Shown here: positions 3,882 to 37,475 of the stretch, in pieces
Layout: the number at the start of each line of letters is the position of its first letter
How positions within the stretch are numbered: position 1 is the stretch's first letter
Virus record (IMG/VR): IMGVR_UViG_3300020421_000026
Span: 1-54,370 of that record
Strand: one strand, 5' to 3'
Source of the DNA: a virus
Length of the DNA: 54,370 nt
Made by a program: the position numbers and the translations under genes
The notes under the pieces: generated by a model
The model's database searches: none
What the model was told of the DNA's origin: nothing
The model's input: only the letters and a program-made list of their open reading frames with translations

Positions 3882-4514
3882 ATGCAGTTTAAAAGAAGAG
3901 ATAATAATTTCAATCATATGGGTACATGGGGTGTTGCCATAGAAAACATGGTGTGTCCACGTCCAGAAATGCTTGATAGATTTGACCAAAGTGGGTATGA
4001 CCTGTGTGCATTAGAACAAGAATACGCAAAATGTAACCTAGGTGAACCACAATACATGCGTTATAAAAGATGTATTAAACAAGAATGGTATGAACCATGT
4101 GGTAATTCAACAGGTGCTCACATTAACCATTCTGATTTATATGAAAGAAAAGGTTATCATGGATATGCATTTGAACAATTAAACAATTGGACTAGTGGTA
4201 ACCATTTGTTGTACAAAATGACACAACTTAAACCTAAATGGGGAATAGATATTAGTATAGACTATGTAGATGACCAACGTAATGTTATGGAACTATTTCA
4301 TTACGAATGGGACGACCACAATTTAGACAATGTATTAGAGAAAAAAGACATAATACAGGATATAGTTGAACATAATGATTGGAATGATATTGCTAAAACT
4401 AAATTGCTACGCAAAGATGAATGGCAACATTTAGACTTTGTAGGTCAAAGTGCTTGGACAACTAAATTTTTGAATATACCAGAAGAACGTTTTAAACTAG
4501 TTCCCTGGCAATAG
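3882..4514 (+). CDS. Hypothetical protein, plus-strand singleton
   Basis: 210 aa, not recognised. Tryptophan, tyrosine, histidine and cysteine are frequent (several Cys between about residues 24 and 73), and it looks like a compact globular cytoplasmic protein with no signal peptide or membrane segment. It is transcribed alone from a plus-strand ATAAATA promoter at 3867-3873, 8 nt before the ATG, with no Shine-Dalgarno. Its last 23 bp overlap the end of the convergent radical SAM gene. That one-gene inversion within a minus-strand block suggests insertion as a mobile cassette. Confidence 0.75.
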   Translation: MQFKRRDNNFNHMGTWGVAIENMVCPRPEMLDRFDQSGYDLCALEQEYAKCNLGEPQYMRYKRCIKQEWYEPCGNSTGAHINHSDLYERKGYHGYAFEQLNNWTSGNHLLYKMTQLKPKWGIDISIDYVDDQRNVMELFHYEWDDHNLDNVLEKKDIIQDIVEHNDWNDIAKTKLLRKDEWQHLDFVGQSAWTTKFLNIPEERFKLVPWQ

Positions 4515-6177
4515 AAACTTTCTTTAAATTATCTGCATCAACTAGTTGTGACTTTATAAAACTTGTGTGTTTTTCTATAGACATTAATCTTTCAACATAG
4601 TTTTCAAAGTTTTTCTTTTCAATTTTATTCCTATCAAGCCAAGAAAACTTTTTATCCTTAACTAATTGCAAGATTTCATCAGCAGATAAATCACAACCAT
4701 CTAATCCCCATGCTCGAAACTGACCATGGAAAATAAATTTGTATCCGTTTTTGTGTTGAGACATTGTGTTTGCATAACGATGCCTTACACTAAACATTTC
4801 TTCTCCTGTGATACCGTATTTGTTTCTATAATTTGTAAAGTTATTACCTTCAGCAACATATTTCAATACATCTCCTGTCCATGGTATAAGTTCTAATCCA
4901 AAACTTTCAGGATCTGCTGTAAATTTGCTTTCTTCGTTGCTAGATTTAACTCCTTTTTTAGGCAAGTACAAAGGACTTACTACAAAACTGTCTAAAGGAT
5001 TATCATCACTTCTTAAGAATCTTAAATTTTCTCTTAGAGTATCTTTTGAATCACTAGGTAACCCTAAAATAAAATTAGAATGTACAAATACATCTTTCCA
5101 AACGTCTTGTTTTATTTCTCTTAACCAATCCATTAACTTCATTGGGTTTAATCCTTTCCCAATATCTTTAGCACTTTCACTATTAAGTGTTTCTATACCA
5201 CAATGTGCAAACACTAATCCACAGTCTTTTAAAAGTTGTGCTTGTTTTTTGAGCATTACTAAATCCAATCTTATGAAAGCACTCAATGTTATTTTAAAAG
5301 GTAATGATTTTACAACATCTGCAAATTGTTCTAGTCTTTCGTTGTCGTCATTGAATGTATCGTCACTAATCCAGTACCTAGTTGTACCATAGTTGTCATA
5401 ATTGCGTATAAGTTCTTCTCTTATTAAGTCTTTGCCCCTTACATAACTACCTGGTTCTTTGCCTAATAGTCTAAAACTACAAAAACTGCATTGAAAAATA
5501 CAACCTCTTGCAATTTCTAAAGGCATACCTTCTGTTTTTGTAATTAAATCTTCAGGACACCAAGTCATTGTTGATGTTGATATCTCATGTAAACTGTGAG
5601 GGTCCGCATAATATCTTTTTATTTCTGTTTTATTTTTTATAGACATTAAGATATCAGGAACAGTTACTTCTCCATACCCACTTGCAACAATATCTATGTT
5701 AGGATTTTTTAAACTATCCTCATTTACTATTGCTCCACCTACAATTACCTTACAATCAGGACTAATACTTTTAATATGATTTGTAATGTTTGTTTCTATG
5801 TCAAAATCTTCTACAGGTAACCATTGTGCCGCTTCAAACCCATACTGTCCTACCATGTTTAAAGTTTTTCTTGGAGATAAAGGTTGGTGTAACCACGTTG
5901 TACTTGTGCCAACTGCTAATGTATTAGGTCCTACAAACTTATCTATTATGTTATAGAACTGTTTTGCAGATAAAAACTTAGAATAATCTACAACTTGTAC
6001 AGAAAAACCTTGCAATCTGCAATGATAGGCTACTTTATAAGCACCTAATGTTCTTGTTGTAGTAGAAATTAATTCTTGGAATACGTTTCCGTATGTTTTG
6101 TCATTCGGATCAACAGATAAATTTTCAATATCGTTTGCTCTGCCTGTAAAGATTAAAAAATCTACGGGGGTTTTCAT
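4492..6177 (-). CDS. Cobalamin-type radical SAM protein (paralog A)
   Basis: 561 aa. An N-terminal Rossmann-like B12-binding-type domain (about residues 1-190, with KVIVGGA and SGYGEVTVPDIL) is followed by a radical SAM core with the [4Fe-4S] ligands C226, C230 and C233 (GCIFQCSFC). I see no DxHxxG cobalamin-ligand motif, so any cobalamin would bind without the lower His. Substrate unknown; the architecture is that of B12-dependent methylases and rearranging enzymes. Two paralogs lie at 20649 and 22559, sharing the opening TPVDFL/TPADVL and the cysteine signature. The ATG directly follows the gp16 stop codon (TAAATG). It would need a reductant, and a ferredoxin-NADP reductase is encoded at 24451. 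Family call secure, function open. Confidence 0.88.
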   Translation of the reverse strand: MKTPVDFLIFTGRANDIENLSVDPNDKTYGNVFQELISTTTRTLGAYKVAYHCRLQGFSVQVVDYSKFLSAKQFYNIIDKFVGPNTLAVGTSTTWLHQPLSPRKTLNMVGQYGFEAAQWLPVEDFDIETNITNHIKSISPDCKVIVGGAIVNEDSLKNPNIDIVASGYGEVTVPDILMSIKNKTEIKRYYADPHSLHEISTSTMTWCPEDLITKTEGMPLEIARGCIFQCSFCSFRLLGKEPGSYVRGKDLIREELIRNYDNYGTTRYWISDDTFNDDNERLEQFADVVKSLPFKITLSAFIRLDLVMLKKQAQLLKDCGLVFAHCGIETLNSESAKDIGKGLNPMKLMDWLREIKQDVWKDVFVHSNFILGLPSDSKDTLRENLRFLRSDDNPLDSFVVSPLYLPKKGVKSSNEESKFTADPESFGLELIPWTGDVLKYVAEGNNFTNYRNKYGITGEEMFSVRHRYANTMSQHKNGYKFIFHGQFRAWGLDGCDLSADEILQLVKDKKFSWLDRNKIEKKNFENYVERLMSIEKHTSFIKSQLVDADNLKKVSIARELV

Positions 6178-14551: not shown

Positions 14552-14558
14552 TATTTAT
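14552..14558 (-). promoter_or_regulatory. Late promoter of gp1
   Basis: ATAAATA overlapping the stop of the upstream oxygenase-like gene, 20 nt before the gp1 ATG, with AGGAAT between. Confidence 0.55.
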
Positions 14559-15415
14559 TTAAAAAAATTTCCGGTATCTACCAGTTCTTCTATTTGTTTG
14601 AAAGTAAATTCTGTATTTGCATGTACTCTAAATGAAACTCTAGGTGTGCCATTTGTAAGTACTCTATGCCATTGGGCAAGGTTTACAATGTAAGCATTGT
14701 GCATACCCTTGTGTTCTACTATTGGTGTCAAATCATCATACCAACTTTCATCCGAAAGCCAATGTTGAGTTGCTTTCATGCACATTTTATTTTGTTCAAC
14801 AATCTTTTCCCAAAAAGGTTCATCAGGTCTTTCTGTAAAAAATTTATTGATTAATTCTTTCTCATTTTGTAACATACGTTCAGTAGGTCTGGCAAATTCT
14901 AATACACTACCGTCTATGTCTCCTAGCAATCTAAAATTTATTACAGCAGGTGCTCTCATATTTTTTATATACTCAACACCAAATTCTTTTGGTATTGTTT
15001 CTTCATTAGGTATCTCTATAGGGCCTTCTTTATGCCAACCAGAAGGATCTGAAAAACATAAAATAGTTACAGGAGGATGAGAATGCATTCCATCTTTCCA
15101 TATTTTTTGAAAAACATCTGGTCTAAACGTATCATTCATCCAAGTCCAAACGTCATGTTTCATTTTTGTATCTGTTATTACTGCTTCACCATTAAAAAGA
15201 TTTTCTCTTTGAACATATTTCCATGCATCTTTATTCTTATTATCCATATATGTTCCAGCCATCCAATTATTCCATCTTACTGTTTTTCCGTTTATAGTTA
15301 AATCTGAGGGAACAGGTATATTACCATTGAACAAATCGAATTCGTAGTCACTAAAAATATTTTCAGCAGTAAACGGAAAGTCTATATCAGGAATATCACA
15401 ATAACATTCTAACAT
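14555..15415 (-). CDS. WHxE-family oxygenase-like protein (paralog 3 of 4)
   Basis: 286 aa. It belongs to a family of four in this window, defined by a shared framework: an acidic N-terminal motif (FPFTAENIFSD), a WHxE motif (GWHKEG), an NFRL strand (INFRLLGD), a late HRV motif (QWHRV), then R-V-S-F-R and a hydrophobic end (TGNFFK). The His/Glu, distal His and Arg fit the HxE-H-R facial triad and 2-oxoglutarate anchor of Fe(II)/2OG oxygenases on a jelly-roll fold. Activity is inferred, not established. The start overlaps the previous paralog by 7 nt. Substrate unknown; candidates include phage or host nucleic acid, protein or cofactor. Confidence 0.72.
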   Translation of the reverse strand: MLECYCDIPDIDFPFTAENIFSDYEFDLFNGNIPVPSDLTINGKTVRWNNWMAGTYMDNKNKDAWKYVQRENLFNGEAVITDTKMKHDVWTWMNDTFRPDVFQKIWKDGMHSHPPVTILCFSDPSGWHKEGPIEIPNEETIPKEFGVEYIKNMRAPAVINFRLLGDIDGSVLEFARPTERMLQNEKELINKFFTERPDEPFWEKIVEQNKMCMKATQHWLSDESWYDDLTPIVEHKGMHNAYIVNLAQWHRVLTNGTPRVSFRVHANTEFTFKQIEELVDTGNFFK

Positions 15416-16311
15416 TTTAATAATATCCCTTGTTGCCTATAATCTTTCATTGTGTTCCAATCTAATTTCATACCACTATGCAGTCTAAAAGTAACTCTAG
15501 TAGATTGGTCTCCTACAAGTACTCTGTGTAAACTTCCAAAATCTAACATAAAAGGAGACTTAAATCCTTTTTTAGTCTCTTGTACATTCATATGATTGTG
15601 CCATGGTTTTGTATCTAGTATTTGATCCACTGGTCCATAGGATTGAATTGTTGGCGACTCTTCGTTATCTCTAGCAAAAGTATAAAATCCTTCTTTTGCC
15701 TCCATCCACTTTTTAAAAAATTTTTCTCTAGTATCAATTATTGTTTGACTAAATTCATCTGACATTTCTGCAAATTCTATAGAACTGTTTTCTTCATCGC
15801 CTATTAATCTAAAATTGCAAACTGACGTAGAAACTCTCCACCATGGTCCCCACCATTTAGATAGATTGGATCTATTTTCTCTAATATGTTTTAATCTAAT
15901 AGGATCTGTTTCGCCGGGCTCCATGTGCCAAGGAGAATTGTTATTCCATACTAATATTGATACAGGTGCAATATTTGGAAAAGAACCACCCTTAAATAAA
16001 TCGCCAATCCAGTCTTCATGATATGTATCATTTACCCATTCCCAAAATATTCGTGAGAGTTTATTAGGTCTATTTCTGAGAATTCCTGTTGAACCTTTAG
16101 CAACTTTGACAATCTCGTCACCGTTTTCATTGACATGTCTTTTTACATTCCTAATCCATATAATATTTTCTGTTTGTATCGTATTTTCACTAATTGTTGT
16201 ATTAGTGTAATTATTTCCATATATCTCATCATAATCTTCATCTGTAAATAATTCATCTACTGTAAATGGTAAAGAGAGTTCTTCATTTGTGAATTCTAAA
16301 TAGTTGTTCAT
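15409..16311 (-). CDS. WHxE-family oxygenase-like protein (paralog 2 of 4)
   Basis: 300 aa, paralogous to its neighbours. Framework residues: LPFTVDELFTDED near residue 15, PWHMEPG (WHxE) in the middle, CNFRLIGD, SLHRV near residue 270, then RVTFRLHSG and the terminal GILLK. The third Trp of the usual WHRV is Leu here. It overlaps the upstream paralog by ATGA and the downstream one by 7 nt, so the three are one translationally coupled unit. The divergence between copies, only short motifs being shared, suggests old duplication and separate substrates. Predicted Fe(II)/2OG-type oxygenase by motif only. Confidence 0.72.
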   Translation of the reverse strand: MNNYLEFTNEELSLPFTVDELFTDEDYDEIYGNNYTNTTISENTIQTENIIWIRNVKRHVNENGDEIVKVAKGSTGILRNRPNKLSRIFWEWVNDTYHEDWIGDLFKGGSFPNIAPVSILVWNNNSPWHMEPGETDPIRLKHIRENRSNLSKWWGPWWRVSTSVCNFRLIGDEENSSIEFAEMSDEFSQTIIDTREKFFKKWMEAKEGFYTFARDNEESPTIQSYGPVDQILDTKPWHNHMNVQETKKGFKSPFMLDFGSLHRVLVGDQSTRVTFRLHSGMKLDWNTMKDYRQQGILLKC

Positions 16312-17159
16312 TTTAAAAGTTCTCCTTCTTCATGCATTTTTCTAAATGTACTAAAAGGAGTATCTTGTTTTGATTGGAAAACTAAACTTAATCTTATCTC
16401 ACCAGGGTTGTCTAAATACACTCTGTGCCAACTTGCTACATTTACTAAAAAAGGACTGTCGTATCCTTCTTTACAATTTATTTCTGTTAGATTGCTTTCC
16501 ATTTTACTACCAGGTTTTATTGCATCTCTGTTTGCAAAAGACTTAAAACTTTTGGTTTCATCTTCAGCATACTCTACTTGAGATACAAAAGGAGCATTAT
16601 TAAATTTATTATCTAACTCATTATATACGTTTCTTAATGAATTGTCAAATGTTTTATCATGATTTGCAAATTTTATTCTTGTGCCTGTTGTTGGGCCTAC
16701 TAAGTTAAAATTTAATCTTGTGCTGGATCTAAATCGTTGAAAATGTTTTGGGTTTGCAAAAGAATGCATTCCTTCGTGATGCCAATGCCCTGTGTCTGGA
16801 TAATGTAAAATTAAACTTGCTGGAAATATCTGTTCTCCAACATTAAATCCGGGCCACTTTTGATGTGTCCACATGTTATCTAAAAATTGTTTGGGATTTT
16901 TAAATGTATCATTTATAAAACTGTAAAGTCTTCTTGCAATCTTTTTATCCGTAATCATTGCCATTGCGGCTGTCCAATGTAACTTGTCTGTTTTTATCCA
17001 GGACTCTTGTCTTGCTTGTGCTTGTTGTATGAGTGCTAAATCGCCACGCATAATACGACGGTCATCTTCACATAATAACTCGTCAGCACTTATGGGACAT
17101 TCTAGTTGGGGTAGGTTGATAAATGTGTCTTTATCCGATAACAAATCCGAGTGGTGCAT
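16308..17159 (-). CDS. WHxE-family oxygenase-like protein (paralog 1 of 4)
   Basis: 283 aa from the ATG at 17159. A longer frame starts at a TTG inside gp13, but the ATG gives an N-terminus (FINLPQLECPISADELL) aligned with the other paralogs and has a purine-rich site just ahead. Motifs: HWHHEG (WHxE), LNFNLVG, SWHRV, then RLSLVF and the terminal GELLK. An HxE-H-R arrangement suggests a non-haem Fe(II)/2OG oxygenase. It overlaps the end of gp13 by 29 bp, so it is expressed in the gp13 late transcript. Confidence 0.72.
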   Translation of the reverse strand: MHHSDLLSDKDTFINLPQLECPISADELLCEDDRRIMRGDLALIQQAQARQESWIKTDKLHWTAAMAMITDKKIARRLYSFINDTFKNPKQFLDNMWTHQKWPGFNVGEQIFPASLILHYPDTGHWHHEGMHSFANPKHFQRFRSSTRLNFNLVGPTTGTRIKFANHDKTFDNSLRNVYNELDNKFNNAPFVSQVEYAEDETKSFKSFANRDAIKPGSKMESNLTEINCKEGYDSPFLVNVASWHRVYLDNPGEIRLSLVFQSKQDTPFSTFRKMHEEGELLK

Positions 17160-17898
17160 TTCCTTCTTCCATATTGTGTAATGATGCAATCAATTGTTCC
17201 ATTTCAGTTAATGCTTCACTTTTTAGAGCATCACCATTCAATGTTGTAGCACCGCCAGGTCCAGGAAGTCCACCAGGGAATTTGCTTCTTGCCTCACCTA
17301 ACATCATTTTACTTTGTGCTAAGGCATAGGCACTTAGCCACTCTGCGGCATAAACGTCTTTGATTAACACACTTTCTGGAATAAAGTTATTGACTCCTAC
17401 TGCAATATCTTCTTCGTGATTTACATTTCTTAGAATTGTTAATTCTTTTGTATTCCTGTTAAAGGTAAAGTTGTATTCGCTACCAAACACACGACCAATA
17501 GTTTCTTTGTATTGTGCAAATGCATCAAATACTGCTAGTCCACCTATTTGTCCTGCTTGTAACATATACATATTGTTGAATGCAACATCAAATGGATCAA
17601 AGTTAGTACCGCCACCACTATTGGTACCAATACCACGTCTATATAATCTTTTAACGTCTATAACTTCTTGAGGTAATGTATATTTTGTAACACCTGCTTG
17701 AGTTTGAACGAATATAACTGCTTCTTCTACACTTCCTGTACTTAATTGTCTGTACTTTTGTATAGATTTATTAATTGCTACATCGTAATGGTCCCTGTCT
17801 AATTCAACATCTACCATACCATCAGCAAGACGTAATTGAATTTCTTCAATTATTTCGTTTCTACTGTTATATCCTATTTGGTCTATTCTTGTTGCCAT
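17131..17898 (-). CDS. gp13: Neck protein gp13
   Basis: 255 aa from the ATG at 17898. A longer frame would read through the late promoter and is rejected. gp13 and gp14 form the neck collar to which the tail joins. Features of the family: NEIIEEIQLRLADGMVDVEL at the N-terminus, DHYDVAINKSIQKY, EVIDVKRLYR, and a C-terminal segment with EARSKFPGGLPGPGG leading to a helix ending LIASLHNMEE, as in T4 gp13 (LPGGVTVDGQ). The ATAAATAGTAGTATG arrangement puts the promoter 5 nt before the start, without Shine-Dalgarno. gp14 is at 27874 on the other strand. Confidence 0.82.
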   Translation of the reverse strand: MATRIDQIGYNSRNEIIEEIQLRLADGMVDVELDRDHYDVAINKSIQKYRQLSTGSVEEAVIFVQTQAGVTKYTLPQEVIDVKRLYRRGIGTNSGGGTNFDPFDVAFNNMYMLQAGQIGGLAVFDAFAQYKETIGRVFGSEYNFTFNRNTKELTILRNVNHEEDIAVGVNNFIPESVLIKDVYAAEWLSAYALAQSKMMLGEARSKFPGGLPGPGGATTLNGDALKSEALTEMEQLIASLHNMEEGNAPLGFVIG

Positions 17899-17903
17899 AC
17901 TAC

Positions 17904-17910
17904 TATTTAT
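17904..17910 (-). promoter_or_regulatory. Late promoter of gp13
   Basis: ATAAATA, GTAGT, ATG: identical to the gp16 arrangement. It decides the gp13 start at 17898. Confidence 0.75.
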
Positions 17911-17931
17911 CACTTTTTGGTATTATACCAG

Positions 17932-17938
17932 ATAAATA
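17932..17938 (+). promoter_or_regulatory. Late promoter of inverted WHxE paralog
   Basis: ATAAATA, TATGC, ATG. Identical over this stretch to the promoter at 27823 on the other strand. Divergent from the gp13 promoter. Between them lies an 11-nt palindrome-like GGTATTATACC. Confidence 0.7.
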
Positions 17939-17943
17939 TATGC

Positions 17944-19026
17944 ATGGATACAAACTACTACAACTATATAGAACATACAAAGCATAATATGTCTAAAATT
18001 TTAGACAAAGGCAGTATTGTACCCATAAAAGATGATGTAGGCGTAGGTTTTAGGTACTATGACACCGATAAAACAGACCAACTACAAATGAAAAAATTTA
18101 GAACAGTTGCTGATTATGATCCTAGATTATCAAATCAGTTTACTAAAGAAGATTCTTTTTTAGACTTTCCTGAGTTAAATTTACCTATAGACCTAGATGA
18201 TTTCTTTACAGATATAGACCACGAAATTTGTGAAAAGAAATTTTGGGGGAAAGGTGATGAGGACGACTCATCTACTCAACAAGTTGTTCATTCAAAGAAT
18301 ATAGGCTGGTTAATACATCCTGCTAGAAGTATAGGAACTAAAGTTGCTAAAGATGATAAAAGAGGTGTGTGCATTGGACATATTTTAAGTCCTAAGTACA
18401 AAAAATATTTTTGGGAATATGCAAACGACACTTTCCATGAAGATTTTATAGACATTATTAAAGACCATTTAGGATACAAACAAGTTCCTGTTAGTATTAT
18501 ATCAATAAAAGATTTACATCATTGGCATCACGAAGGTGTTCAACCTTGGCATGATTATACTCCAATTCCATATTATACAAGACGCACAGAAACATGTATT
18601 AACTTTAGATTATTTTCATCAACTGACGATGACGAAACAGAAGTAAATTTTGGTTGGCCCTCCGTTGAAGTGCATAAAGAGTTTTCTAAAATATCAGACG
18701 AACTAAATGAAAATATTATAGATAAATTTCAAGGAGATGAAGGCAGAAAGGTTGAATGGATACATAATGAAAATCTACAAATAAAAACTGCACTACATCA
18801 AGATACTATACTACCAGATTCACAACTCAATGACGAGATAGAATTAGTTGCAACTAAAAAAGGATATCATTGCCCTTTTATGATTAACACTAACTACTGG
18901 CATAGAGTTTACACAAAGGATACAAAGACACCTAGAATAACTTTAAGATTTTTTAGTCCTATGGGAGTTCCGTTTCATCATTTTAGAAAGTTACACCAGG
19001 AAGGTAAACTTTTAAAAAACTTGTAA
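17944..19026 (+). CDS. WHxE-family oxygenase-like protein (paralog 4 of 4, inverted)
   Basis: 360 aa from the ATG at 17944. An upstream in-frame start at 17836 is rejected because it lies within gp13 and before the promoter. Same framework as the three minus-strand copies: LDFPELNLPIDLDDFFTD, HWHHEG (WHxE), INFRLFSS, YWHRV, RITLRFFSP, and terminal GKLLKNL. It carries an extra N-terminal segment of about 60 residues. A plus-strand ATAAATA ends 5 nt before the ATG. It faces away from gp13 with only 45 bp between starts, and its last 15 bp overlap the convergent gene at 19012. Confidence 0.75.
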   Translation: MDTNYYNYIEHTKHNMSKILDKGSIVPIKDDVGVGFRYYDTDKTDQLQMKKFRTVADYDPRLSNQFTKEDSFLDFPELNLPIDLDDFFTDIDHEICEKKFWGKGDEDDSSTQQVVHSKNIGWLIHPARSIGTKVAKDDKRGVCIGHILSPKYKKYFWEYANDTFHEDFIDIIKDHLGYKQVPVSIISIKDLHHWHHEGVQPWHDYTPIPYYTRRTETCINFRLFSSTDDDETEVNFGWPSVEVHKEFSKISDELNENIIDKFQGDEGRKVEWIHNENLQIKTALHQDTILPDSQLNDEIELVATKKGYHCPFMINTNYWHRVYTKDTKTPRITLRFFSPMGVPFHHFRKLHQEGKLLKNL

Positions 19027-20172
19027 TAATATAGTTTGTTCATTTAACCTACCTGTAAGTTTAGTAGGTGTTGTTTTTACTTCATCAAATGCTTTTGCAA
19101 ATTTTGTTTTTGCTCTACCAGTCCAATTATTAATTTGTTCTGCAGGCTTTCTTAAAGTTTTTTGCAAACTTGTTTCTTCGTCAAAGTCTTGTATAGTAGT
19201 TCCTTTAACCATTAAACCTGCACCTTGTCTTTGTAACCCACGTGGGTCTTTGTCTTTTGCGTGGTAAACTCCTACTTTACGGGTCTTTGTATTGTACACC
19301 CATAGTTCATTGGCGTAAACGACGTCTGTGGGCGAGATAGATGCTATTCCTAATGCTCCATCGTTGAGTTGAAACTTTAGTTTTTTAATAATTACATCTT
19401 TACTTCTTGCTCTAGGCTTACGTTGTTTTCTGTTTGCTTTACCTGTAAGTATAATTGCATCACAGGCGGCATTTATTTTTTCAAAGAATGCAACATAATC
19501 TTTCTTCATTTTCTTATCCATAAAACTATATGCTTCTTTAAGTTGTTCACATGTGCCTTCCAAACTTTCTACTGCTTCTGCATGATTAAGTTCATATTGG
19601 TCTTTAATCATTTTAGCATGTGCTGGCTTAATAACTCCGCCACCAAATACTTTCATATCTTTCTCAGGATCAAACTTTTTAAGATTAAACTTTTCTGTTT
19701 CTATAAAAGTATCTAGTAAGTCGTCCCATTCGCCGCATAGGTCAGTTATTTGCAAAAGCATTCTTTCTTGTATTGATATTTTTGGTGGTGCTTCTTTTTG
19801 TTTTTCTTGTATCTCTTCCACAATTTCCATACCTGTCTTAATAAGTTCTTCTTTTTTTGTAGCATAGAATTTAGCAAAACGTTCTGGCATATATCCTAAC
19901 TTATACCAACACCAGCCGTACTTTGCACTACTGCTAAATCTCCAGTCTGGATTTTTAAGTATTATTTTTATTTCTTCTTTGTCCCAACCACTTGCTTCTT
20001 TTACCCACTTGCGATATTTGGATACTGCATCTTTAGTTGAAATTTCAGAATGTACAAAATAGTCAACCGACCTGAATGCCAACTCTTGTTGTTCAGGATC
20101 AGTGATAGCCTGATACTTTTTCCAGTCAGGCTCTTTTGTTACATATACTGTTCTTTGCTTTCGTTTTGCCAT
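19012..20172 (-). CDS. Conserved hypothetical protein, 386 aa
   Basis: Basic N-terminus (MAKRKQRTVYV), a charged helical middle (about residues 100-260, Lys/Glu-rich), and a beta-rich C-terminal domain (about 280-340, IASISPTDVVYANELWVYNTKTRKVGVYHA). I believe relatives exist in marine T4-like phages but cannot name the function. No signal peptide or membrane segment. No clear promoter or strong Shine-Dalgarno is visible. A perfect 10-bp inverted repeat lies upstream at 20213-20248. It ends in a 15-bp convergent overlap with the oxygenase-like gene. Confidence 0.75.
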   Translation of the reverse strand: MAKRKQRTVYVTKEPDWKKYQAITDPEQQELAFRSVDYFVHSEISTKDAVSKYRKWVKEASGWDKEEIKIILKNPDWRFSSSAKYGWCWYKLGYMPERFAKFYATKKEELIKTGMEIVEEIQEKQKEAPPKISIQERMLLQITDLCGEWDDLLDTFIETEKFNLKKFDPEKDMKVFGGGVIKPAHAKMIKDQYELNHAEAVESLEGTCEQLKEAYSFMDKKMKKDYVAFFEKINAACDAIILTGKANRKQRKPRARSKDVIIKKLKFQLNDGALGIASISPTDVVYANELWVYNTKTRKVGVYHAKDKDPRGLQRQGAGLMVKGTTIQDFDEETSLQKTLRKPAEQINNWTGRAKTKFAKAFDEVKTTPTKLTGRLNEQTILLQVF

Positions 20173-20212
20173 CTTTTGTTTTTTACCAAAATATAGTGCT
20201 AGTTAGTATAAC

Positions 20213-20248
20213 TTCAAAAATTTTTTATGTCAATTGGTAATTTTTGAA
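20213..20248. repeat. 10-bp inverted repeat upstream of 386-aa gene
   Basis: TTCAAAAATT/AATTTTTGAA with a 16-nt loop in the gap between the FabZ-like and 386-aa genes. Could be a weak terminator or a binding site. The gap holds no gene. Confidence 0.45.
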
Positions 20249-20263: not shown

Positions 20264-20686
20264 TTATAGTTTTTTGGCTGTTAATCCTACTGTTGCTGAT
20301 GCAACACGTGATTCACCATCGAATACTTTGCAATCATAAAACATATGATGCATTTTACGTTTGGCAAGTTTGGCTTCTAACCTTAATCTTGTTCCAGGAA
20401 ATACAGGATATCTAAATTTACATTTGTCAACACTAGTAACAAATGTAACATAATCTTCATGTTTAAGTTCACCATTCTCTTTTCCTGCTAAGTGAAGTGC
20501 GTGAAGTCCAGCACATTGGTTCATACCTTCAATAATATAAACACCGGGCCATATTTTTACATGTGGGAAATGTCCTTCTAATACTGGATGAGCATCATGA
20601 ACCATATATGTTGCTTCTATTTCTTCATCACTAAGAATAGTGTGTTCGTCAATCAGTGCTATTGGATGTCTGTGTGGTAGTTCCAT
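20264..20686 (-). CDS. FabZ-like 3-hydroxyacyl-ACP dehydratase (hotdog fold)
   Basis: 140 aa, the size of FabZ (about 150). FabZ dehydrates 3-hydroxyacyl-ACP in fatty acid elongation. Visible signatures: LPHRHPIALIDE at residues 3-14 (FabZ LPHRYPFLLVD), GHFP with the catalytic His39, and PGVYIIEGMNQ with Glu53, then FRYPVFPGTRLRLEA. The active-site pair is intact. The ATG lies 38 bp inside the 3' end of the radical SAM gene upstream and has a GTAAATA late-like element 6 nt ahead. The start is supported because the motif begins at residue 3. It may alter host lipids or make a modified acyl group for the adjacent radical SAM enzymes. Family confident; pathway role inferred. Confidence 0.85.
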   Translation of the reverse strand: MELPHRHPIALIDEHTILSDEEIEATYMVHDAHPVLEGHFPHVKIWPGVYIIEGMNQCAGLHALHLAGKENGELKHEDYVTFVTSVDKCKFRYPVFPGTRLRLEAKLAKRKMHHMFYDCKVFDGESRVASATVGLTAKKL

Positions 20687-22562
20687 GTAGAGTATTTACA
20701 CCGTCAACATAAATTACTTTGTCATATTTGGTATGACTTGATACTTGCCCAACTAGGTTCCAATATTTTCTCAAATAATTTTCACCTGTTGGAGTATGGA
20801 CTGCTTCTTTTTTGAAGTACCCACCACTCATCATTTGTCGCGGTATATATCCTTTGCTATCAAAATATCTCATAGTTGTTTGCAAAGCAAATCTCATAGC
20901 AGTCATGTGTGTAATTCCGTGTCTATTAATATAACTGCTAAAATTATGTGCTAGTTCATCTTGTGGTAAATGTTTTGATTGTGGATTTATTCTAGAAAAT
21001 TTATATCCATATTTTTCTGGATCTTCAACTATAGGAGATTCTTTGCCTCCTGTAATTTGTTTTACTCTAGAAGATTCTGGTGCGTTCATAGTGTATGCAT
21101 TTACGTCTAAACAATCTAATTTATTGTAGTTTGGATCACAAATTTTATCAGCCATAATCTTCAATTCTTTTTTACTGTCCTCAGGTAAGCCTACCATAAA
21201 CATACTGAACAATGTTACCTGGTCTCCAAATGGAGTATCTTGTAAATCGGCAATGTATGCCATTTGTTCATCTGGATGCCAACCTTTATTAATAGCAACA
21301 GCACTATCAGGGATAAGTGTCTCAATGCCATAATGTGCAAATACTAACCCTGAGTCTATTAATACTTGTTCTTGTTTTAATCTGTTTTGTAAATCTAATC
21401 TTATAAATGCTGTATATTCCAAAGGTATATCTAACTTTTCTTTTAGTTTTGCAATTTTAATAATTTTTTCTGTATCATCATTAAAAGTATCATCTGCCAT
21501 CCAATACCTATGTACTCCATGCTCGTACCAATTACGTTTGATTTCATCTTCTAATAAACTTTGACTTCTAAGATAACTGCCTTTTTCTTTTCCAGTTAAA
21601 CCAAAATTACAAAAACTACATTCAAAAATACAACCTCTTGCTGTTTCCATTGTAAGCATATCATTTGTTTGCAAACAATCTTCAGGTGTATATTGCATAG
21701 TTGAATTAGTTATATCAAGTCTACTACCAACATCTGTATAAAAATTTACTCGTTTTTTATTGTCTATATCTTCTAAAATTTCTGTAATCGTGACATCTCC
21801 ATATCCATTGTTTACTATATCAATGTCTCCAATTGGAGAATCAGACATTTCAATTGTTTCTTTCTTAAGTGCAGGTCCAATTGCTCCACCTAATATCATT
21901 TTAGTATCTGGATTTCTTTCATGTATCCACTGTTTTATCTTTTTTTGACGACCAGGCATGAAATATAAACTGTGAACTAATCCATGAGGATTTGATATAC
22001 CTGAAAATACAGTACTAAAACAAACCGCTCTAGTATTTTCCCCAACAAATTTGTAAAATATCTTTTGAAAATCTTGTTCAGTTGCATAAAAATGGTGTCC
22101 TATAACTTGACAAGTGTACCCTGCTTTTCTTATTTCATGTGCAACTTTAAATCCGCCAAAACCTTTTGCAGTAACATCATATACCATGTGTTCACTGTAA
22201 TCCCAAAGACCAACTGGACTCTCTTCAATAGGATGGTCTCGTTGAGCACATCTTAAATATGCTCTATATTCTCTGTCTGTTAATTCTTTTCTTCCCAATT
22301 CCTGAAAAGCGGCACCGGGATATGTAATAGAAGAATACCATGCAGGAGTAATATCAGATGTAAACATCAAAACATCTGCCGGTGTATGTTCTATTTCGTG
22401 TAATGGGGTATCATCTAACATGCCTACTGGTGAGATAGGTATGCCAGCAAATGCATATGGATCTTCTTCTGTAAACTTTCTTTCTCTAAACCTTTCCCAA
22501 ACTGGTGCACGAATTCTTACTTTTTCTAGTGTATTATATATTCGTTTTTCTTCTGGTGTCAT
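20649..22562 (-). CDS. Cobalamin-type radical SAM protein (paralog B)
   Basis: 637 aa, the longest of three paralogs, with about 55 extra N-terminal residues. The B12-binding-type domain spans roughly 58-265 (TPADVLMF start, KMILGGAIGPA, NNGYGDVTITEIL). The radical SAM cysteines are C311, C315 and C318 (GCIFECSFC), followed by GLTGKEKGSYLR, also found in paralog A. A C-terminal helical domain extends to the end. The ATG overlaps the stop of paralog C (ATGA). The FabZ-like gene overlaps its 3' end, so the three genes are one unit. Substrate unknown. Confidence 0.88.
   Translation of the reverse strand: MTPEEKRIYNTLEKVRIRAPVWERFRERKFTEEDPYAFAGIPISPVGMLDDTPLHEIEHTPADVLMFTSDITPAWYSSITYPGAAFQELGRKELTDREYRAYLRCAQRDHPIEESPVGLWDYSEHMVYDVTAKGFGGFKVAHEIRKAGYTCQVIGHHFYATEQDFQKIFYKFVGENTRAVCFSTVFSGISNPHGLVHSLYFMPGRQKKIKQWIHERNPDTKMILGGAIGPALKKETIEMSDSPIGDIDIVNNGYGDVTITEILEDIDNKKRVNFYTDVGSRLDITNSTMQYTPEDCLQTNDMLTMETARGCIFECSFCNFGLTGKEKGSYLRSQSLLEDEIKRNWYEHGVHRYWMADDTFNDDTEKIIKIAKLKEKLDIPLEYTAFIRLDLQNRLKQEQVLIDSGLVFAHYGIETLIPDSAVAINKGWHPDEQMAYIADLQDTPFGDQVTLFSMFMVGLPEDSKKELKIMADKICDPNYNKLDCLDVNAYTMNAPESSRVKQITGGKESPIVEDPEKYGYKFSRINPQSKHLPQDELAHNFSSYINRHGITHMTAMRFALQTTMRYFDSKGYIPRQMMSGGYFKKEAVHTPTGENYLRKYWNLVGQVSSHTKYDKVIYVDGVNTLHGTTTQTSNSTD
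20693..20699 (-). promoter_or_regulatory. Variant late promoter of FabZ-like gene
   Basis: GTAAATA, one mismatch to the usual element, 6 nt before the ATG and inside the upstream coding sequence. Confidence 0.4.
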
Positions 22563-24346
22563 TTTTTTAATACTTGTTCTATGTATTTGTTGTACCTGTT
22601 AATCTCTACTTTGTTAATTCTTTCTACAGAATCCAAATCAAACTCATCAAATTCTTCAGGTGTAATATTTTCGCCTTCTTTGTAAGGTAATCCAAAAGAT
22701 TTAAAAAGCATATTGGGCCAAAGTTTACCTGCGTCCATTAGTCTTTTATTTAATCTATTAGAAAATTTTAAGGCATCTACAAATGTAATGCCATTTTTAT
22801 TTTTATATAAAAATTGTGCATGAAAAAACTTTTGTATTTCTGGTTCCATTTCTTTTCCATTCATATATTGTGTAGTAGGTTCGTAACCGTAATCTCTCCA
22901 ATTCTTCTGGAATTCACTATCAGTTCTTTCATCAAATCCTTCTGGTGTAATACTTAATGGTCTTACTGCTGTACCTACCATAGGATTTTTATCTGATACT
23001 AAAAAGTTTGCCATTTCTTTTATACTTTTCTTTGTATCACTAGGTAGTCCTACAATCATACCGCTACCCATATCAACATGTGACCAAACACCGTCTTTAA
23101 GTTCACGCATGTATTCAAATTGTGTCATTGGATTTAAACCTTTACCAATGTCGACTGCACTATCGGGGTCAGTTGTTTCCACTCCAAACTGTACATGTAC
23201 TATTCCTGCATCTCGAATAATTTCTGCTTGACTAGGAGTTCTATTTCTATTTGCATATAATAAATCTAATCTTATGTAACAAGCAAACTTTAATTTAAAA
23301 GGCAATGTTTTGGACATTTCCATAAAGTCTATCATTTTATCGTGGTCATCATTGAACGTATCATCTACAATCCAATAATGTTCTACTCCAAACTTTTCAT
23401 AATTATGTACAAGTTCTTCTCGTATAAGATCCATGCATCTAATACCTTCACCTTTTTGTTTTCCATTTAATGCAAAAGAACAAAACTTACATTTGAATAT
23501 ACAACCTCTGCTAATTTCAATAGGTAATATTTCGCCTGGATATAAACAATCGTCTTCGTGCCATTTCATTGTGGAGTGTTTTACATCTTGTTTGCTGAAT
23601 ACATCTTCTTTAAAAGGTAACCCAAAATTGTTTTTAGGTAATTGTTCTACATCTCCGTCTTTTAATTCTGTTAGTATTTCAGGTACAGTGATATCGCCAT
23701 ATCCTATGTTTACAATATCAACATGTTTGTAATCTGATTTTTTATTTGTAAATGCTCCGCCTTTCATTAATTTTGTTTTTGGGTTGACTTTCTTAAGATG
23801 TTCTACAAACAGTTCATCTATTTCAGGACCATGTGGTAAAAATCCTACATACGCCTGTGTATCATCTGAGGTTGCACCATATTTTTCTTTAACGTCATGT
23901 CCATAAAAAGGATCTAAGTTTGTATAGGAAGGTCGTACATTTAATCTATTTGGTATTTTTGCTATAAAAGTATTACTAATACCTACTGCTAAAGTATTTT
24001 CTCCAACGTATTTGTCTAATACTTTTCTCAAAGTTGCTATATCCATATGAGTTATTAAGTCAACTACTTGTACAGTAAAGCCACTTTCTCTAACTTCATG
24101 AGCAACTTTATAAGGTCCTAATGCTCTACTGCCTACAAAAGGGAACATATCAAACCAGCCAAGTTGCCACAAAGGTGAATTAAGTCTCTCAGGATCATTT
24201 TCTTTTAAGTATTTGCTGGACTCAGCAAGATGTTGTTTTACTTCATATCCGTGTGATTGTATTCCCCAGCCGATATTATCAGCAAGTAGTAGGAAATCTA
24301 CAGGTGTATGTTCCACCTCTATTGAACTATAAGGGTTATATTGCAT
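22559..24346 (-). CDS. Cobalamin-type radical SAM protein (paralog C)
   Basis: 595 aa. The B12-type domain starts at TPVDFLLL (about residue 14) and includes KLMKGGAFT and NIGYGDITVPEIL. The radical SAM ligands are C282, C286 and C289 (GCIFKCKFC). First gene of a three-gene unit with paralog B and the FabZ-like dehydratase. An ATAAATA element lies 7 nt before the ATG at 24354-24360, immediately next to the 3' end of tRNA-Arg, so the promoter may also separate tRNA and mRNA transcripts. As in the paralogs, no DxHxxG is seen. Likely electron donor: a reductase system such as the product of 24451. Confidence 0.88.
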   Translation of the reverse strand: MQYNPYSSIEVEHTPVDFLLLADNIGWGIQSHGYEVKQHLAESSKYLKENDPERLNSPLWQLGWFDMFPFVGSRALGPYKVAHEVRESGFTVQVVDLITHMDIATLRKVLDKYVGENTLAVGISNTFIAKIPNRLNVRPSYTNLDPFYGHDVKEKYGATSDDTQAYVGFLPHGPEIDELFVEHLKKVNPKTKLMKGGAFTNKKSDYKHVDIVNIGYGDITVPEILTELKDGDVEQLPKNNFGLPFKEDVFSKQDVKHSTMKWHEDDCLYPGEILPIEISRGCIFKCKFCSFALNGKQKGEGIRCMDLIREELVHNYEKFGVEHYWIVDDTFNDDHDKMIDFMEMSKTLPFKLKFACYIRLDLLYANRNRTPSQAEIIRDAGIVHVQFGVETTDPDSAVDIGKGLNPMTQFEYMRELKDGVWSHVDMGSGMIVGLPSDTKKSIKEMANFLVSDKNPMVGTAVRPLSITPEGFDERTDSEFQKNWRDYGYEPTTQYMNGKEMEPEIQKFFHAQFLYKNKNGITFVDALKFSNRLNKRLMDAGKLWPNMLFKSFGLPYKEGENITPEEFDEFDLDSVERINKVEINRYNKYIEQVLKK

Positions 24347-24450: not shown

Positions 24451-25167
24451 TTAATCTACAAATGCCCTTTCTAGAACAAAGTCTCCTGGCTCACCTAGAT
24501 TTCCTTCTTGGAAACCTAAATTTTCAAAATAGTCCCTACATTCATAATTCATGTCTGGACCTCCACACACCATAACTCTATCAGTTTCTTTGTTAAATCC
24601 ACCATTAGTAAAGTTATCAATGTGTTCCCAAAAACGACCTTTACGCACATAATCGTCTTGTGTGCAAGTGTCGTAGTATGTTAAAGGAAATGTATTGCAC
24701 ATTTCTTGTATAACATCTGTGTAGGTATGCTCTGCATGTGTTCTTGTGGTATGACAGAGTATAACACTTTTGAACTTTTCATAAGTTTCTGGGTCTCTTA
24801 TAATACTCATAAAAGGTGCTATACCTGTCCCTGTTGATAGCAAATATAAGTTGTCTGCTTGTGTTACGTTATCAATCGTTAAAGTGCCGGTACACTTGGG
24901 GTTTACTAAAACTTCGTCTCCAACTTTTAAATGCTGTAAACGACTTGTAAGAGGTCCGTCGGGTACCTTAATACTTAAGAACTCCAACTCATCTTCGTAG
25001 TTTGCACTAGCAATACTGTATGCTCTTAGTAAAGGCTTTTCATCTACCCTTAATCCAATCATAGCAAACTCTCCGTTTACAAAACGAAAAGATTGATTTC
25101 TGGTTGTTTTAAAACTGAATGTTTTATCAGTCCAGTGATGTACCCATGTTACTGTTTCTGTGTTCAA
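24451..25167 (-). CDS. Ferredoxin/flavodoxin-NADP+ reductase
   Basis: 238 aa, cytoplasmic flavoprotein moving electrons between NADPH and ferredoxin or flavodoxin. FAD-binding RAYS at residues 48-51 and GPLTSRL at 71-77; NADP-binding STGTGIAPF at 111-119; a CGGPDMNYEC segment late; C-terminus LERAFVD as in the bacterial short-chain (Fpr-type) class. The start is TTG, in a TTGA overlap with the stop of the upstream 85-aa gene. No in-frame ATG lies near, and the N-terminus aligns with Fpr from there. The gene lies among radical SAM, di-iron and 2OG-type enzymes and could reduce their Fe-S or metal centres, which is inference. Confidence 0.9.
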   Translation of the reverse strand: MNTETVTWVHHWTDKTFSFKTTRNQSFRFVNGEFAMIGLRVDEKPLLRAYSIASANYEDELEFLSIKVPDGPLTSRLQHLKVGDEVLVNPKCTGTLTIDNVTQADNLYLLSTGTGIAPFMSIIRDPETYEKFKSVILCHTTRTHAEHTYTDVIQEMCNTFPLTYYDTCTQDDYVRKGRFWEHIDNFTNGGFNKETDRVMVCGGPDMNYECRDYFENLGFQEGNLGEPGDFVLERAFVD

Positions 25168-25421
25168 TGTTTAGTCGCCTTAAATGATTCAATCATTGCA
25201 TTTCTAACTTCTGGATCTTTAAGTTTTTCTAAAAATTCAGCATTTATTTCAAAAGTCATGCCTTTTTCCATCTTTGATATCAAACTTAAATCATCAACGC
25301 CTAGCATAACACATACTTCTTCAAATGTCAATAAGTTCAAGCCTTTTTCTTTAGCATCTATCAACAAATCAAAAATTGCGTCTGTTATTAAATCTTCTAA
25401 ATCTTTATACTTTTCACTCAT
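25164..25421 (-). CDS. Hypothetical protein, 85 aa, helical
   Basis: A small acidic, fully helical protein, not recognised. Leucine-rich N-terminal helix (LEDLITDAIFDLLIDAKEKG), then a segment LLTFEEVCVMLGVDDLSLI that resembles a helix-turn-helix pair, though this is weak. The start ATG has GGTGAG just upstream. It lies between tRNA-Ala and the reductase gene and overlaps the reductase start (TTGA), so it probably drives its translation. Confidence 0.7.
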   Translation of the reverse strand: MSEKYKDLEDLITDAIFDLLIDAKEKGLNLLTFEEVCVMLGVDDLSLISKMEKGMTFEINAEFLEKLKDPEVRNAMIESFKATKH

Positions 25422-25432
25422 TTCTCACCACG

Positions 25433-25508
25433 TGGTGGAGCGGACAGGGGTCGAACCTGCGACCTTCTGGATGCAAACCAGACGCTCTCCCAACTGAGCT
25501 ACCGCCCC
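25433..25508 (-). tRNA. tRNA-Ala: tRNA-Ala (anticodon TGC)
   Basis: Cloverleaf on the minus strand. Acceptor GGGGCGG pairs with CCGCTCC (one G-U), anticodon stem TCTGG/CCAGA with loop TTTGCAT (anticodon TGC), and T arm GCAGG-TTCGACC-CCTGT. Discriminator A and encoded CCA; 76 nt with CCA. It is flanked closely by two small protein genes, consistent with processing from a mixed transcript. Confidence 0.95.
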
Positions 25509-25514: not shown

Positions 25515-25697
25515 CTATCTATTCATTAAAGCCTTCATATTATTACCAATCCTTTCTGCATTGGCACTAACATTCTTTGCTATTTCTTCTGCGTTCTTTC
25601 TAATGTTCTCTGCTATTACTTCACCACTCCATGGGTTAGGTGTAACTTTGGATACCTTTTTTGTTTTAGCCTTTACTTTGGCTTTTGTTTTAGTCAT
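25515..25697 (-). CDS. Small basic protein between tRNAs, 60 aa
   Basis: 60 aa from the ATG at 25697, which has an AGGAAA Shine-Dalgarno; an in-frame ATG nine codons earlier lacks one. The N-terminal third is Lys/Thr/Val-rich and very basic (KTKAKVKAKTKK). The rest is an amphipathic helix with a regular Asn/Ala/Ile pattern (AENIRKNAEEIAKNVSANAE) suggesting a coiled coil. Phasin-like or histone-like proteins have this style, but I do not recognise it. It lies in the tRNA cluster. Confidence 0.6.
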   Translation of the reverse strand: MTKTKAKVKAKTKKVSKVTPNPWSGEVIAENIRKNAEEIAKNVSANAERIGNNMKALMNR

Positions 25698-25759
25698 TCT
25701 AATATTTCCTAATATATGATCCACTTTATTAAGTGGACTGCATATTTACCAGATAAATC

Positions 25760-25849
25760 TGGCGGAGAGTGAGAGATTCGAACTCTCGGTACAGTTACCC
25801 GTACTCTTCCTTAGCAGGGAAGTGCTTTAAGCCACTCAGCCAACTCTCC
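25760..25849 (-). tRNA. tRNA-Ser: tRNA-Ser (anticodon GCT)
   Basis: Class II tRNA on the minus strand. Acceptor GGAGAGT pairs with ACTCTCC, anticodon stem CTTCC/GGAAG with loop CTGCTAA (anticodon GCT, reading AGC/AGT), a long variable arm, and T arm GAGAG-TTCGAAT-CTCTC. CCA is encoded; 90 nt with CCA. Confidence 0.95.
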
Positions 25850-25868
25850 TGTTAATTTGTATTATACG

Positions 25869-26498
25869 TTATTTGAAAGGAATGTCAAGTCTTATTGTAA
25901 GACCTAATTTAGATTCACAGGTCATTTTGCCTGTTGCATGAATACTCTTTGCATCAAACTTTAAAACATTGCCAGGTTCAAAGGGATATGCTGTTCCACT
26001 TAATCCATGCCAATAGTCTTTAGGTTGGTGATCCAAATGTGAATATAATTCATCATCAACTTCTTTGTTTGTTGAATACAGGATGTCATAATCACATGGT
26101 CTGCCTAAAAGTTCTTTGTTATGTTGAAACTTTGCTTGTTTATCTTTAAACACCCAAGTGTTTGCAGGATTGTCCCACACTTGGTCAAATATTATTAAGT
26201 GTGGTTTAGAATCATCTGCTACTTCTAAAGGCATTACAATATTTGATATTTCTCGTTCATGATAATCTGTATGAGGATATAATGGCTGTGTGTGTTTATA
26301 AAAATGTGCTAATGTAATATTTTCTGCATTTACATTTATCAAGTCTGCAATGAATTTTATATCAGCCTTTTTATCAACTTTAATCATATTGTTAGGAAGT
26401 TTTACTCTACTAAATGGATTACTGTAAAACATTTTTTTAAGATGTTCTATAGTGTGTTGGTCTATAACATTCTTTAATAGTTGCGGTTGTAAAATCAT
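25869..26498 (-). CDS. 2OG-Fe(II) oxygenase, marine-phage type
   Basis: 209 aa from the ATG at 26498, which overlaps the upstream stop as TAATG; a longer frame inside the upstream gene is rejected. The iron-binding triad is clear: H76-T-D78 (YPHTDYH), H187 (SIHATG), and the 2OG-anchoring R203 (LTIRLDI). Length and motif spacing match prolyl-hydroxylase-like oxygenases that are common in T4-like cyanophages. It is unlike the four WHxE proteins, which use Glu in the triad. It is coupled to the SPASM-type radical SAM gene, so the two may act on the same substrate. Confidence 0.85.
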   Translation of the reverse strand: MILQPQLLKNVIDQHTIEHLKKMFYSNPFSRVKLPNNMIKVDKKADIKFIADLINVNAENITLAHFYKHTQPLYPHTDYHEREISNIVMPLEVADDSKPHLIIFDQVWDNPANTWVFKDKQAKFQHNKELLGRPCDYDILYSTNKEVDDELYSHLDHQPKDYWHGLSGTAYPFEPGNVLKFDAKSIHATGKMTCESKLGLTIRLDIPFK

Positions 26499-27817
26499 TA
26501 TGTTTCTTTTATTGTTGGTATCAAGTGGTCTAATTTGTGTATATCGAAACGTATATTTTCCCATTTTGTATAATGTGTTTCTCTTAAAGCCGCATACTCT
26601 GGAAATGTTTTAAAAAAATTATCTTTACGCATTCTGTCTAGTTTTTCTGTGTATGTTAAAAACTTAGGCAACAATGCTGAATAATCTTCTTTTAAAAGTT
26701 TTTTTGCACCTGCTATTTGTTCTGCGAGTCTGTGAAGGTCATTTTGTACACAATAAGTATGGAACTCATTCCATTTTCTCAAAACTTCTAGTTTTACACT
26801 TGGAGGCAAAACACTACATCTATAATGCTCTGGTGCATGGCAATAGTTTATAGTAAATTCTTCTGGGCCAATTTTAAGTTCATTTACACATTCAAAATAG
26901 AAGTCTGGCATGTGCCATGCATTAAAAACTGTTAAACTAAATTGTATTCCCAATTTCAAATGTGGAACATGCTTTTGCATATATTTTATATTGTTTTTTA
27001 AAACTTGGTAGTCTAAACCTTTTCTAATGTACTCACCTCTTTCATAACTGCCATCTACACTTAACATAAAACTTACTTGTGGGAAATGTTTTACAATGTC
27101 TGCTATATGTTGGTCTTTGTATGTAAGTCTAGAACCATTTGTGTTATATAAAAGACTAATTTTTTTCTCATGTCCTTCTTCTAATATTTTATTCATTGTA
27201 ACCCAATGCTCATCTGTAAGCATAGGTTCTCCACCTGCCCAGTAAATATGTTCTATATGTGGTAACATTTTGTCTATTAGTGTATCAAAATTATCAGTAA
27301 GTTTTTTAATTTGTATAACTTTTGTATCAGGTTGGCTTTCACTGGTTTCACTTAGTTCAACTGCATCTTCAAACCATTCACTGCTCAGTTCATGATGACA
27401 CATTCTACATTTAAAGTTACATAAATTGCTAACTCTAAAGTCCATATACTTAATGTGAAACTCGTTTAAATGTCCATCCTCTTTTGTATTTTTAACTAAT
27501 TCTTTACATTCGTTTATAGAATCTTTATTTTCTGGTAACTGTGGATTATACCAACGACTATTGCTGTTCAGTCTTAGACTTTCACTATTAAACCTTTCTT
27601 GTTCTGTACAAGTTTTACACTCTGGATTTAGAACATCATTTAACATATTGCGTCTAATTCGCTTGTAATTTTCGTTATTCCATATTTCTTCTGGTGTGCT
27701 ATCATTCAAATTTCCCATGACACCGCCCACACAACATAGTTGACAACTGCCGTTAGGTGTTGGGTGCATGTGTATCCAAGGCAGGATACAAAATGACTTA
27801 TTAGCATATTTGGACAT
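26498..27817 (-). CDS. Radical SAM protein with N-terminal twitch/SPASM-type Cys cluster
   Basis: 439 aa. An N-terminal Cys-rich segment (C10, C25, C28, C29, C67, C70; includes SCQLCC and CKTC) can bind an auxiliary Fe-S cluster. The radical SAM site C133, C137, C140 (NLCNFKCRMC) follows, then the GGEP motif (WAGGEPM) for SAM binding. The auxiliary cluster preceding the core is typical of the twitch-domain radical SAM proteins seen in marine phages and bacteria; such enzymes modify peptides or small molecules. An ATAAATA promoter lies 5 nt before the ATG. The downstream 2OG oxygenase is translationally coupled. Substrate unknown. Confidence 0.87.
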   Translation of the reverse strand: MSKYANKSFCILPWIHMHPTPNGSCQLCCVGGVMGNLNDSTPEEIWNNENYKRIRRNMLNDVLNPECKTCTEQERFNSESLRLNSNSRWYNPQLPENKDSINECKELVKNTKEDGHLNEFHIKYMDFRVSNLCNFKCRMCHHELSSEWFEDAVELSETSESQPDTKVIQIKKLTDNFDTLIDKMLPHIEHIYWAGGEPMLTDEHWVTMNKILEEGHEKKISLLYNTNGSRLTYKDQHIADIVKHFPQVSFMLSVDGSYERGEYIRKGLDYQVLKNNIKYMQKHVPHLKLGIQFSLTVFNAWHMPDFYFECVNELKIGPEEFTINYCHAPEHYRCSVLPPSVKLEVLRKWNEFHTYCVQNDLHRLAEQIAGAKKLLKEDYSALLPKFLTYTEKLDRMRKDNFFKTFPEYAALRETHYTKWENIRFDIHKLDHLIPTIKET

Positions 27818-33597: not shown

Positions 33598-33602
33598 GCA
33601 TG

Positions 33603-33609
33603 TATTTAT
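33603..33609 (-). promoter_or_regulatory. Late promoter of the adenylate cyclase
   Basis: ATAAATA, CATGC, ATG; 4 bp from the end of the second curlin-like gene. No Shine-Dalgarno. Confidence 0.7.
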
Positions 33610-33613
33610 TATA

Positions 33614-37472: not shown

Positions 37473-37475
37473 TTT

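Follow-up and report, generated by a model that had tools for sequence, protein, structure and literature searches.

A FabZ-like dehydratase gene linked to a ferredoxin/flavodoxin reductase gene in marine T4-related jumbo phages

Bacterial FabZ is known from solved structures, for example those from Campylobacter jejuni (3d6x), Helicobacter pylori (2gll), and Escherichia coli (6n3p), all of which have in common with the phage protein described here a hotdog fold over nearly its full length. Besides FabZ (amxFabZ) and ACP (amxACP), the ladderane gene clusters of anammox bacteria contain KS and radical SAM genes (PMC2649909). For viruses, fabF has been reported from the genomes of freshwater pelagimyophages (PMC7029224), and fabZ from viral metagenome reads of the deep sea at 1,000 m (PMC10653327). 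Here we describe a phage gene for a FabZ-like protein together with its neighbors and its distribution among viral contigs.

The FabZ-like protein and its gene unit

The window analyzed is a complete IMG/VR record of 54,370 bases. The window phage is T4-related and, judging from its capsid protein, which is 62–70% identical to those of phages of 284–470 kb (best 20 rows), it is probably a jumbo phage; its nearest capsid relatives are jumbo phages from several hosts. The carriers of fabZ are a lineage of uncultured, marine T4-related jumbo phages. In the window, fabZ is the last gene of a putative unit on the minus strand:

25861..25888 (-), sigma-70 consensus promoter TTGACA-N16-TATAAT, located 12 nt before tRNA-Ser
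25760..25849 (-), tRNA-Ser (gct), opening the unit
25515..25724 (-), 69-aa ORF with no assigned function
25433..25508 (-), tRNA-Ala (tgc)
25164..25421 (-), conserved 85-aa ORF with no assigned function, overlapping the FNR start
24451..25167 (-), FNR, NADPH ferredoxin/flavodoxin reductase-like protein, 238 aa
24367..24443 (-), tRNA-Arg (tct), between FNR and rSAM-B
22559..24346 (-), rSAM-B, radical SAM enzyme of 595 aa, 32% identical to its paralogue rSAM-A
20649..22562 (-), rSAM-A, radical SAM enzyme, 637 aa, with a Rossmann-like N-terminal domain and a CxxxCxxC radical SAM domain
20264..20686 (-), FabZ-like 3-hydroxyacyl dehydratase, 140 aa, ATG start, H39/E53 dyad
20205..20233 (-), promoter-like site (11/12) ahead of the adjacent gene 19012-20172, where a further unit may start
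4492..6177 (-), rSAM-C, the third radical SAM paralogue, 561 aa, not part of the cassette

The rSAM-A and rSAM-B genes overlap by 4 nt, and the end of rSAM-A and the start of fabZ share 38 nt; the latter overlap is peculiar to the window lineage, relatives usually having a short gap between the two genes. An ACP identity for the 85-aa ORF was rejected, as this ORF has no PP-binding match.

A FabZ-like hotdog protein with the His/Glu pair had been proposed at 20264-20686 by an earlier sequence-only reading, and this identification is confirmed. The protein passes the Pfam FabA-like family PF07977 (E 3e-18, 66.2 bits, gathering cut-off 23), and its best NCBIfam matches are FabZ models, all of them under their equivalog cut-offs (NF000582, 89.5 vs. 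113; TIGR01750, 86.7 vs. 155.15). Because of these scores, and because an N-terminal segment present in E. coli FabZ is missing, we call the protein FabZ-like and not a FabZ equivalog. H39 and E53 are invariant across 17 aligned sequences, and the dyad motif GHFPx5PGVx3E, at FabZ spacing, occurs in 30/30 distinct phage FabZ proteins. With dN/dS values of 0.075–0.16 (10 pairs), phage fabZ is evidently under strong purifying selection. When the AlphaFold2 model of the window protein (pLDDT 86) is compared with the PDB, ranks 1–30 are all FabZ (Z 18.6–20.8, 1.4–2.1 Å), followed by ApeI:P (Z 17.6) and FabA (about 16). FabA, ApeI, and thioesterase identities were therefore discarded, their structures ranking below FabZ. 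FabZ chains also come first in a profile search with phage FabZ, and in a viral fold library the single match of the model at E<=0.001 is a PaaI-type thioesterase. The occurrence of fabZ in 49 other viral contigs, the dyad, the dN/dS values, and the first rank of FabZ structures show that the window gene is no chance ORF.

One scan of genome contigs found nine relatives at 29–46% identity (Synergistaceae, Bdellovibrionota, and others), and no close donor of phage FabZ was among them. In a FabZ tree that lacks one bacterial locus (L325), the 31 phage rows group together on a long branch, except that one Bacteroidota row, itself long-branched (L333), is placed within the group, which we treat as a probable artefact.

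The perfect consensus promoter stands directly before tRNA-Ser at the head of the cassette, and we infer that tRNA-Ser through fabZ form one transcript. Of 21 loci, 17 have a site matching 11 or more of the 12 consensus positions within 2.5 kb upstream of FNR, and four have none; where tRNAs were also scanned (14 loci), the distance from the end of the -10 element to tRNA-Ser is about 9–15 nt in 11. Since such sites occur in other parts of the loci as well (33 in 204 kb vs. 19 in 51 kb), the argument for a promoter is one of position and not of count. The T4-type late promoter TATAAATA occurs twice in the window vs. 6.7 times expected by chance, and CTAAATA six times vs. 16.1; with both below chance, T4-type late expression was dismissed as support for a late role. 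The idea that FabZ acts in late infection thus finds no support, as the cassette begins with a consensus host-type promoter and a tRNA.

The window carries further cargo. Four to five ORFs at 14555-19026 and 25869-26564 look like 2-oxoglutarate/Fe(II) oxygenases (motif reading; no Pfam match) and vary in number among relatives. A ferritin-like diiron protein at 6833-7903 resembles the AurF N-oxygenase (25.2 bits, below the cut-off of 29.6), and a twitch-domain radical SAM protein at 26498-27817 passes NF033640 (365 bits, cut-off 170). A curli-like region at 31717-37976 comprises a CHASE2/cyclase protein, two curlin-repeat proteins, a FecR-domain protein, CsgG (162 bits), and CsgF; its CsgG shares 47% identity with the CsgG of Pelagibacter phage HTVC008M and 45% with those of Melnitz phages. 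Curli genes in marine phages have been reported before, in the pelagimyophage study (PMC7029224).

FNR as constant neighbor and radical SAM genes as variable insert

Three scans of viral contigs yielded 49 distinct FabZ contigs besides the window, with 30 distinct proteins. Six of these contigs end before FNR could appear, which leaves 43 usable for linkage, and in 43/43 FNR lies upstream of fabZ. Between the two genes there are no rSAM genes in seven contigs, one in 28, two in six, and three in two. The constant partner of fabZ is FNR, and the rSAM genes are a variable insert of 0–3 copies; the conserved gene order could partly reflect common descent. The physical tie of fabZ to a radical SAM gene, claimed from the window sequence, is borne out by the 38-nt overlap and by the one to three rSAM genes found directly between FNR and fabZ in 36/43 contigs. 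The rSAM pair as the constant partner of FabZ is not supported, for rSAM genes accompany fabZ in most contigs but are not constant in number, FNR being constant. A FabZ context away from radical SAM genes, which had been named as evidence against a coupling, occurs in the minority of 7/43 contigs, while the other 36 keep rSAM genes. FNR (24451-25167), the most conserved partner of fabZ, had been absent from the sequence-only reading.

Five of the seven contigs without an intervening rSAM gene look like one phage and one is a relative (L076); the remaining one, L147, comes from a different phage, has FNR and FabZ separated by 6.6 kb, and gave no match to any other window gene tested. FNR relatives of at least 77% identity without FabZ occur at 15 loci, where, in our reading, the contig edge lies inside the FNR or rSAM genes. 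At 24 loci of more distant FNR (43–50% identity) no FabZ was seen. Across relatives, FNR is 78–97% identical to the window protein and forms a phage-specific clade. It passes both domain families in Pfam (PF00970, 31.2 vs. 21.1; PF00175, 37.4 vs. 22), and its best NCBIfam match, NF008178, stays under the equivalog cut-off (127.3 bits vs. 390).

All three window paralogues pass Pfam Radical_SAM (rSAM-A 39.1, rSAM-B 53.2, and rSAM-C 51.5 bits; cut-off 29.5), and CxxxCxxC is present in each (sequences and alignment). Whereas FabZ and FNR stay conserved, rSAM paralogues have diverged to 27–44% identity with rSAM-A. The best NCBIfam match of rSAM-A is the ladderane-type B12/rSAM family TIGR04072, at 63.5 bits vs. 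a cut-off of 360. For the B12-binding domain PF02310, rSAM-B (19.1 bits) and rSAM-C (23.9 bits) remain under the cut-off of 32.1 and rSAM-A has no match. The predicted model of rSAM-A (pLDDT 73.5) matches MiaB (17.7), AprD4 (17.5), RimO (17.4), OxsB (17.1), TsrM (16.5), and CysS (15.9), with no separation between OxsB and TsrM, which we take to be B12 enzymes, and MiaB and RimO, presumably non-B12 enzymes. As the fold matches include CysS and TokK entries solved with pantetheinylated substrates, a carrier-bound acyl substrate for rSAM is possible. Relatives of the window rSAMs are found in >500 viral stretches. This subfamily is absent from a 340-kb contig, G001, in which a profile finds one remote 37-bit match that scores best against the KedN5 family; since G001 keeps FNR and FabZ without such an rSAM, FabZ is independent of this rSAM subfamily.

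ACP, KS, and support genes in relatives

Two FabZ contigs, the 340-kb G001 and its 217-kb near-copy G002, encode both ACP and KS. The G001 ACP passes the PP-binding family (26.1 bits vs. 20.8), with the attachment serine in the DSL of ELDSLAVVD. The G001 KS exceeds both cut-offs in Pfam (PF00109, 108.2 bits; PF02801, 80.7 bits), has an intact Cys-His-His triad as read from its sequence, and stays under the FabF equivalog cut-off (243 vs. 494). Because FabZ, KS, and ACP are all below NCBIfam equivalog cut-offs, their substrates may differ. The G001 positions of ACP (98 kb), KS (125 kb), and fabZ (243 kb) put fabZ about 145 kb from ACP and 118 kb from KS, which makes the phage acyl genes a dispersed set and not a cluster.

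KS relatives at 75–77% identity occur in nine further contigs, with flanks syntenic with G001. ACP is found in 3/10 KS records examined, and these are all three KS-clade records of >100 kb; the tenth KS record (G026) has a distant KS and is without ACP. KS was present in 2/14 FabZ records, G001 and G002, whose identical KS marks them as one phage species, the others being fragments. No FabZ was found in the KS/ACP contigs, as expected of fragments. The window record is likewise a 54-kb fragment, in which neither ACP nor KS was found, and we infer that the window phage itself possesses both. An acyl-chain role for the locus, previously suggested from FabZ, is plausible, and ACP and KS in a near relative strengthen it.

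No match over the cut-off to the FabG-type ketoreductase PF13561 was obtained in 16 records; in G001, a short SDR encoded beside SAM synthetase passes PF00106 (33.5 vs. 26.6 bits). Besides fabZ, the 340-kb contig has another, weakly FabZ-like ORF (L237:9515-9841), which, with no Pfam hotdog match, was rejected. SufBD genes (SUFBD core over the cut-off) occur in 7/12 records and SAM synthetase (MetK) in 3/12, including G001 and the FabZ contig G003; in this lineage both may be support genes for radical SAM chemistry.

SufB/SufD-type genes were noted in the jumbo-phage contigs G001 (L240:9832-15040), G017, G019, G020, G022, and G007, and in our reading their neighbors look like a SUF operon. A run of genes in G001 (L250:9579-18919) includes the SAM synthetase, what we read as a small SCP2-like ORF, the short SDR, and a series of several twitch-type radical SAM-like ORFs. 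In a 357-kb phage contig (L230, G008) the ACP gene appears to lie between large and small ribonucleotide reductase genes. The 235-kb G007 has a distant FNR, ACP, SufBD, SAM synthetase, two related rSAMs, and no FabZ.

Candidate functions and comparison with known systems

Since fabZ is conserved together with FNR, and relatives encode ACP and KS, phages with these genes appear to intervene in host acyl-chain building. We think it probable that the window protein is a catalytically competent FabZ within a phage-encoded, partial type-II elongation set, with FNR serving the rSAMs and the rSAMs being optional. FabZ, according to motif and model, would dehydrate (3R)-3-hydroxyacyl-ACP, supplied by phage KS and a host reductase on phage or host ACP. 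KS and ACP would be encoded elsewhere in the genome, and the host would provide malonyl transfer, reductases, and phosphopantetheinyl transfer. In this way, the set might raise or redirect host acyl-ACP elongation during infection toward acyl chains of membranes, lipids, or cofactors, and the acyl chains of an infected cell would change in quantity or in type. FNR would move electrons from NADPH via host ferredoxin or flavodoxin to the phage radical SAM enzymes and perhaps also to other phage iron enzymes, while the rSAM genes between FNR and fabZ would constitute a variable module not obligate in the FabZ pathway.

A different arrangement, which we judge rather unlikely, is that KS, ACP, FabZ, and perhaps the SDR constitute an acyl-carrier line of the phage's own with interchangeable rSAM tailoring, fed by SAM synthetase, SUF, and FNR, and leading to a non-host acyl metabolite or lipid. 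It is unlikely, too, that FabZ and rSAM form one ladderane-like pathway, in which an enoyl-ACP is made and the carrier-bound acyl chain modified to an unusual lipid or metabolite. The rSAM genes directly between FNR and fabZ in most contigs, TIGR04072 as best match of rSAM-A, the CysS/TokK entries, and ACP and KS in a relative speak for such a pathway. However, seven contigs have FNR and FabZ without such an rSAM and the subfamily is absent from the 340-kb genome, the paralogues diverge while FabZ and FNR do not, the TIGR04072 score is far under its cut-off, MiaB and RimO fit the rSAM fold equally well, and rSAM relatives are widespread among viral stretches.

The minimal reading of the data, supplementation of a single step by an enzyme of normal fold and dyad, is that FabZ merely raises the dose of host elongation in ordinary membrane synthesis, KS and ACP being unrelated acquisitions and no phage pathway existing. 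We regard it as quite unlikely, for a KS that is syntenic and 75–77% conserved in the same jumbo-phage lineage, an ACP in every KS-clade contig of >100 kb, and the divergence of FabZ, KS, and ACP alike from host-type families argue against it. That the protein is a FabZ-derived hotdog acting on another substrate (an acyl-CoA, a polyketide, or a natural-product intermediate) or having a non-enzymatic role would agree with scores below the FabZ equivalog cut-offs, with the missing N-terminal segment, with the change of GHFPGKPIFPGV to GHFPHVKIWPGV, and with the long branch of the phage clade, but the dyad in 30/30 proteins under strong purifying selection and a predicted structure nearer to FabZ than to FabA or thioesterases render it very unlikely.

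Phages boost nucleotide and photosynthetic metabolism; to our knowledge, phage takeover of acyl-chain building is poorly documented. With a selected FabZ, a fixed redox partner, and ACP and KS in the lineage, viral control of fatty-acid elongation becomes directly testable, and small soluble enzymes with established assays suit such tests. In addition, the variable rSAM insert beside a dedicated reductase makes available a naturally varied set of rSAM enzymes together with their likely electron source.

In the open-licence literature we recognized no paper that places a phage FabZ in its genomic context, links it to FNR, or describes a single phage with KS, ACP, and FabZ. FabZ, FNR, rSAM-A, rSAM-B, and KS are all without a match in PHROGs, although phage ACP families are present there. 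Among INPHARED cultured phages, 18 records match FabZ at <=37.3% identity, 28 match KS at <=34%, 11 match FNR at <=52.4%, and none matches rSAM-A; several of these matches look to us like bacterial contigs filed as phage. The assertion that a fatty-acid dehydratase is rare among described phages agrees with these low FabZ identities and with the PHROGs result.

Anammox ladderane clusters share with the phage lineage the content of FabZ, ACP, KS, and radical SAM genes, and anammox FabZ is among the PDB matches of the phage FabZ model (Z 19.3–20.2). In contrast to those clusters, the phage genes are scattered, the rSAMs are optional, and the TIGR04072 cut-off is not reached; the genes examined give no sign of ladderane production by phages. 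Phage FNR shares FAD- and NAD-binding domains with Fpr-type ferredoxin/flavodoxin NADP reductases, the NF008178 cut-off not being reached. The FabZ model superimposes on C. jejuni FabZ (3d6x) over 132 residues at 1.4 Å, and the His/Glu dyad, the LPHR.P start, and the Q..G helix are common to bacterial and phage FabZ. At 23–34% identity to solved bacterial FabZ and with no N-terminal extension, phage FabZ differs from the bacterial enzymes by its motif HFPH(V/I)KIWPGVY and by its place in an FNR/rSAM cassette.
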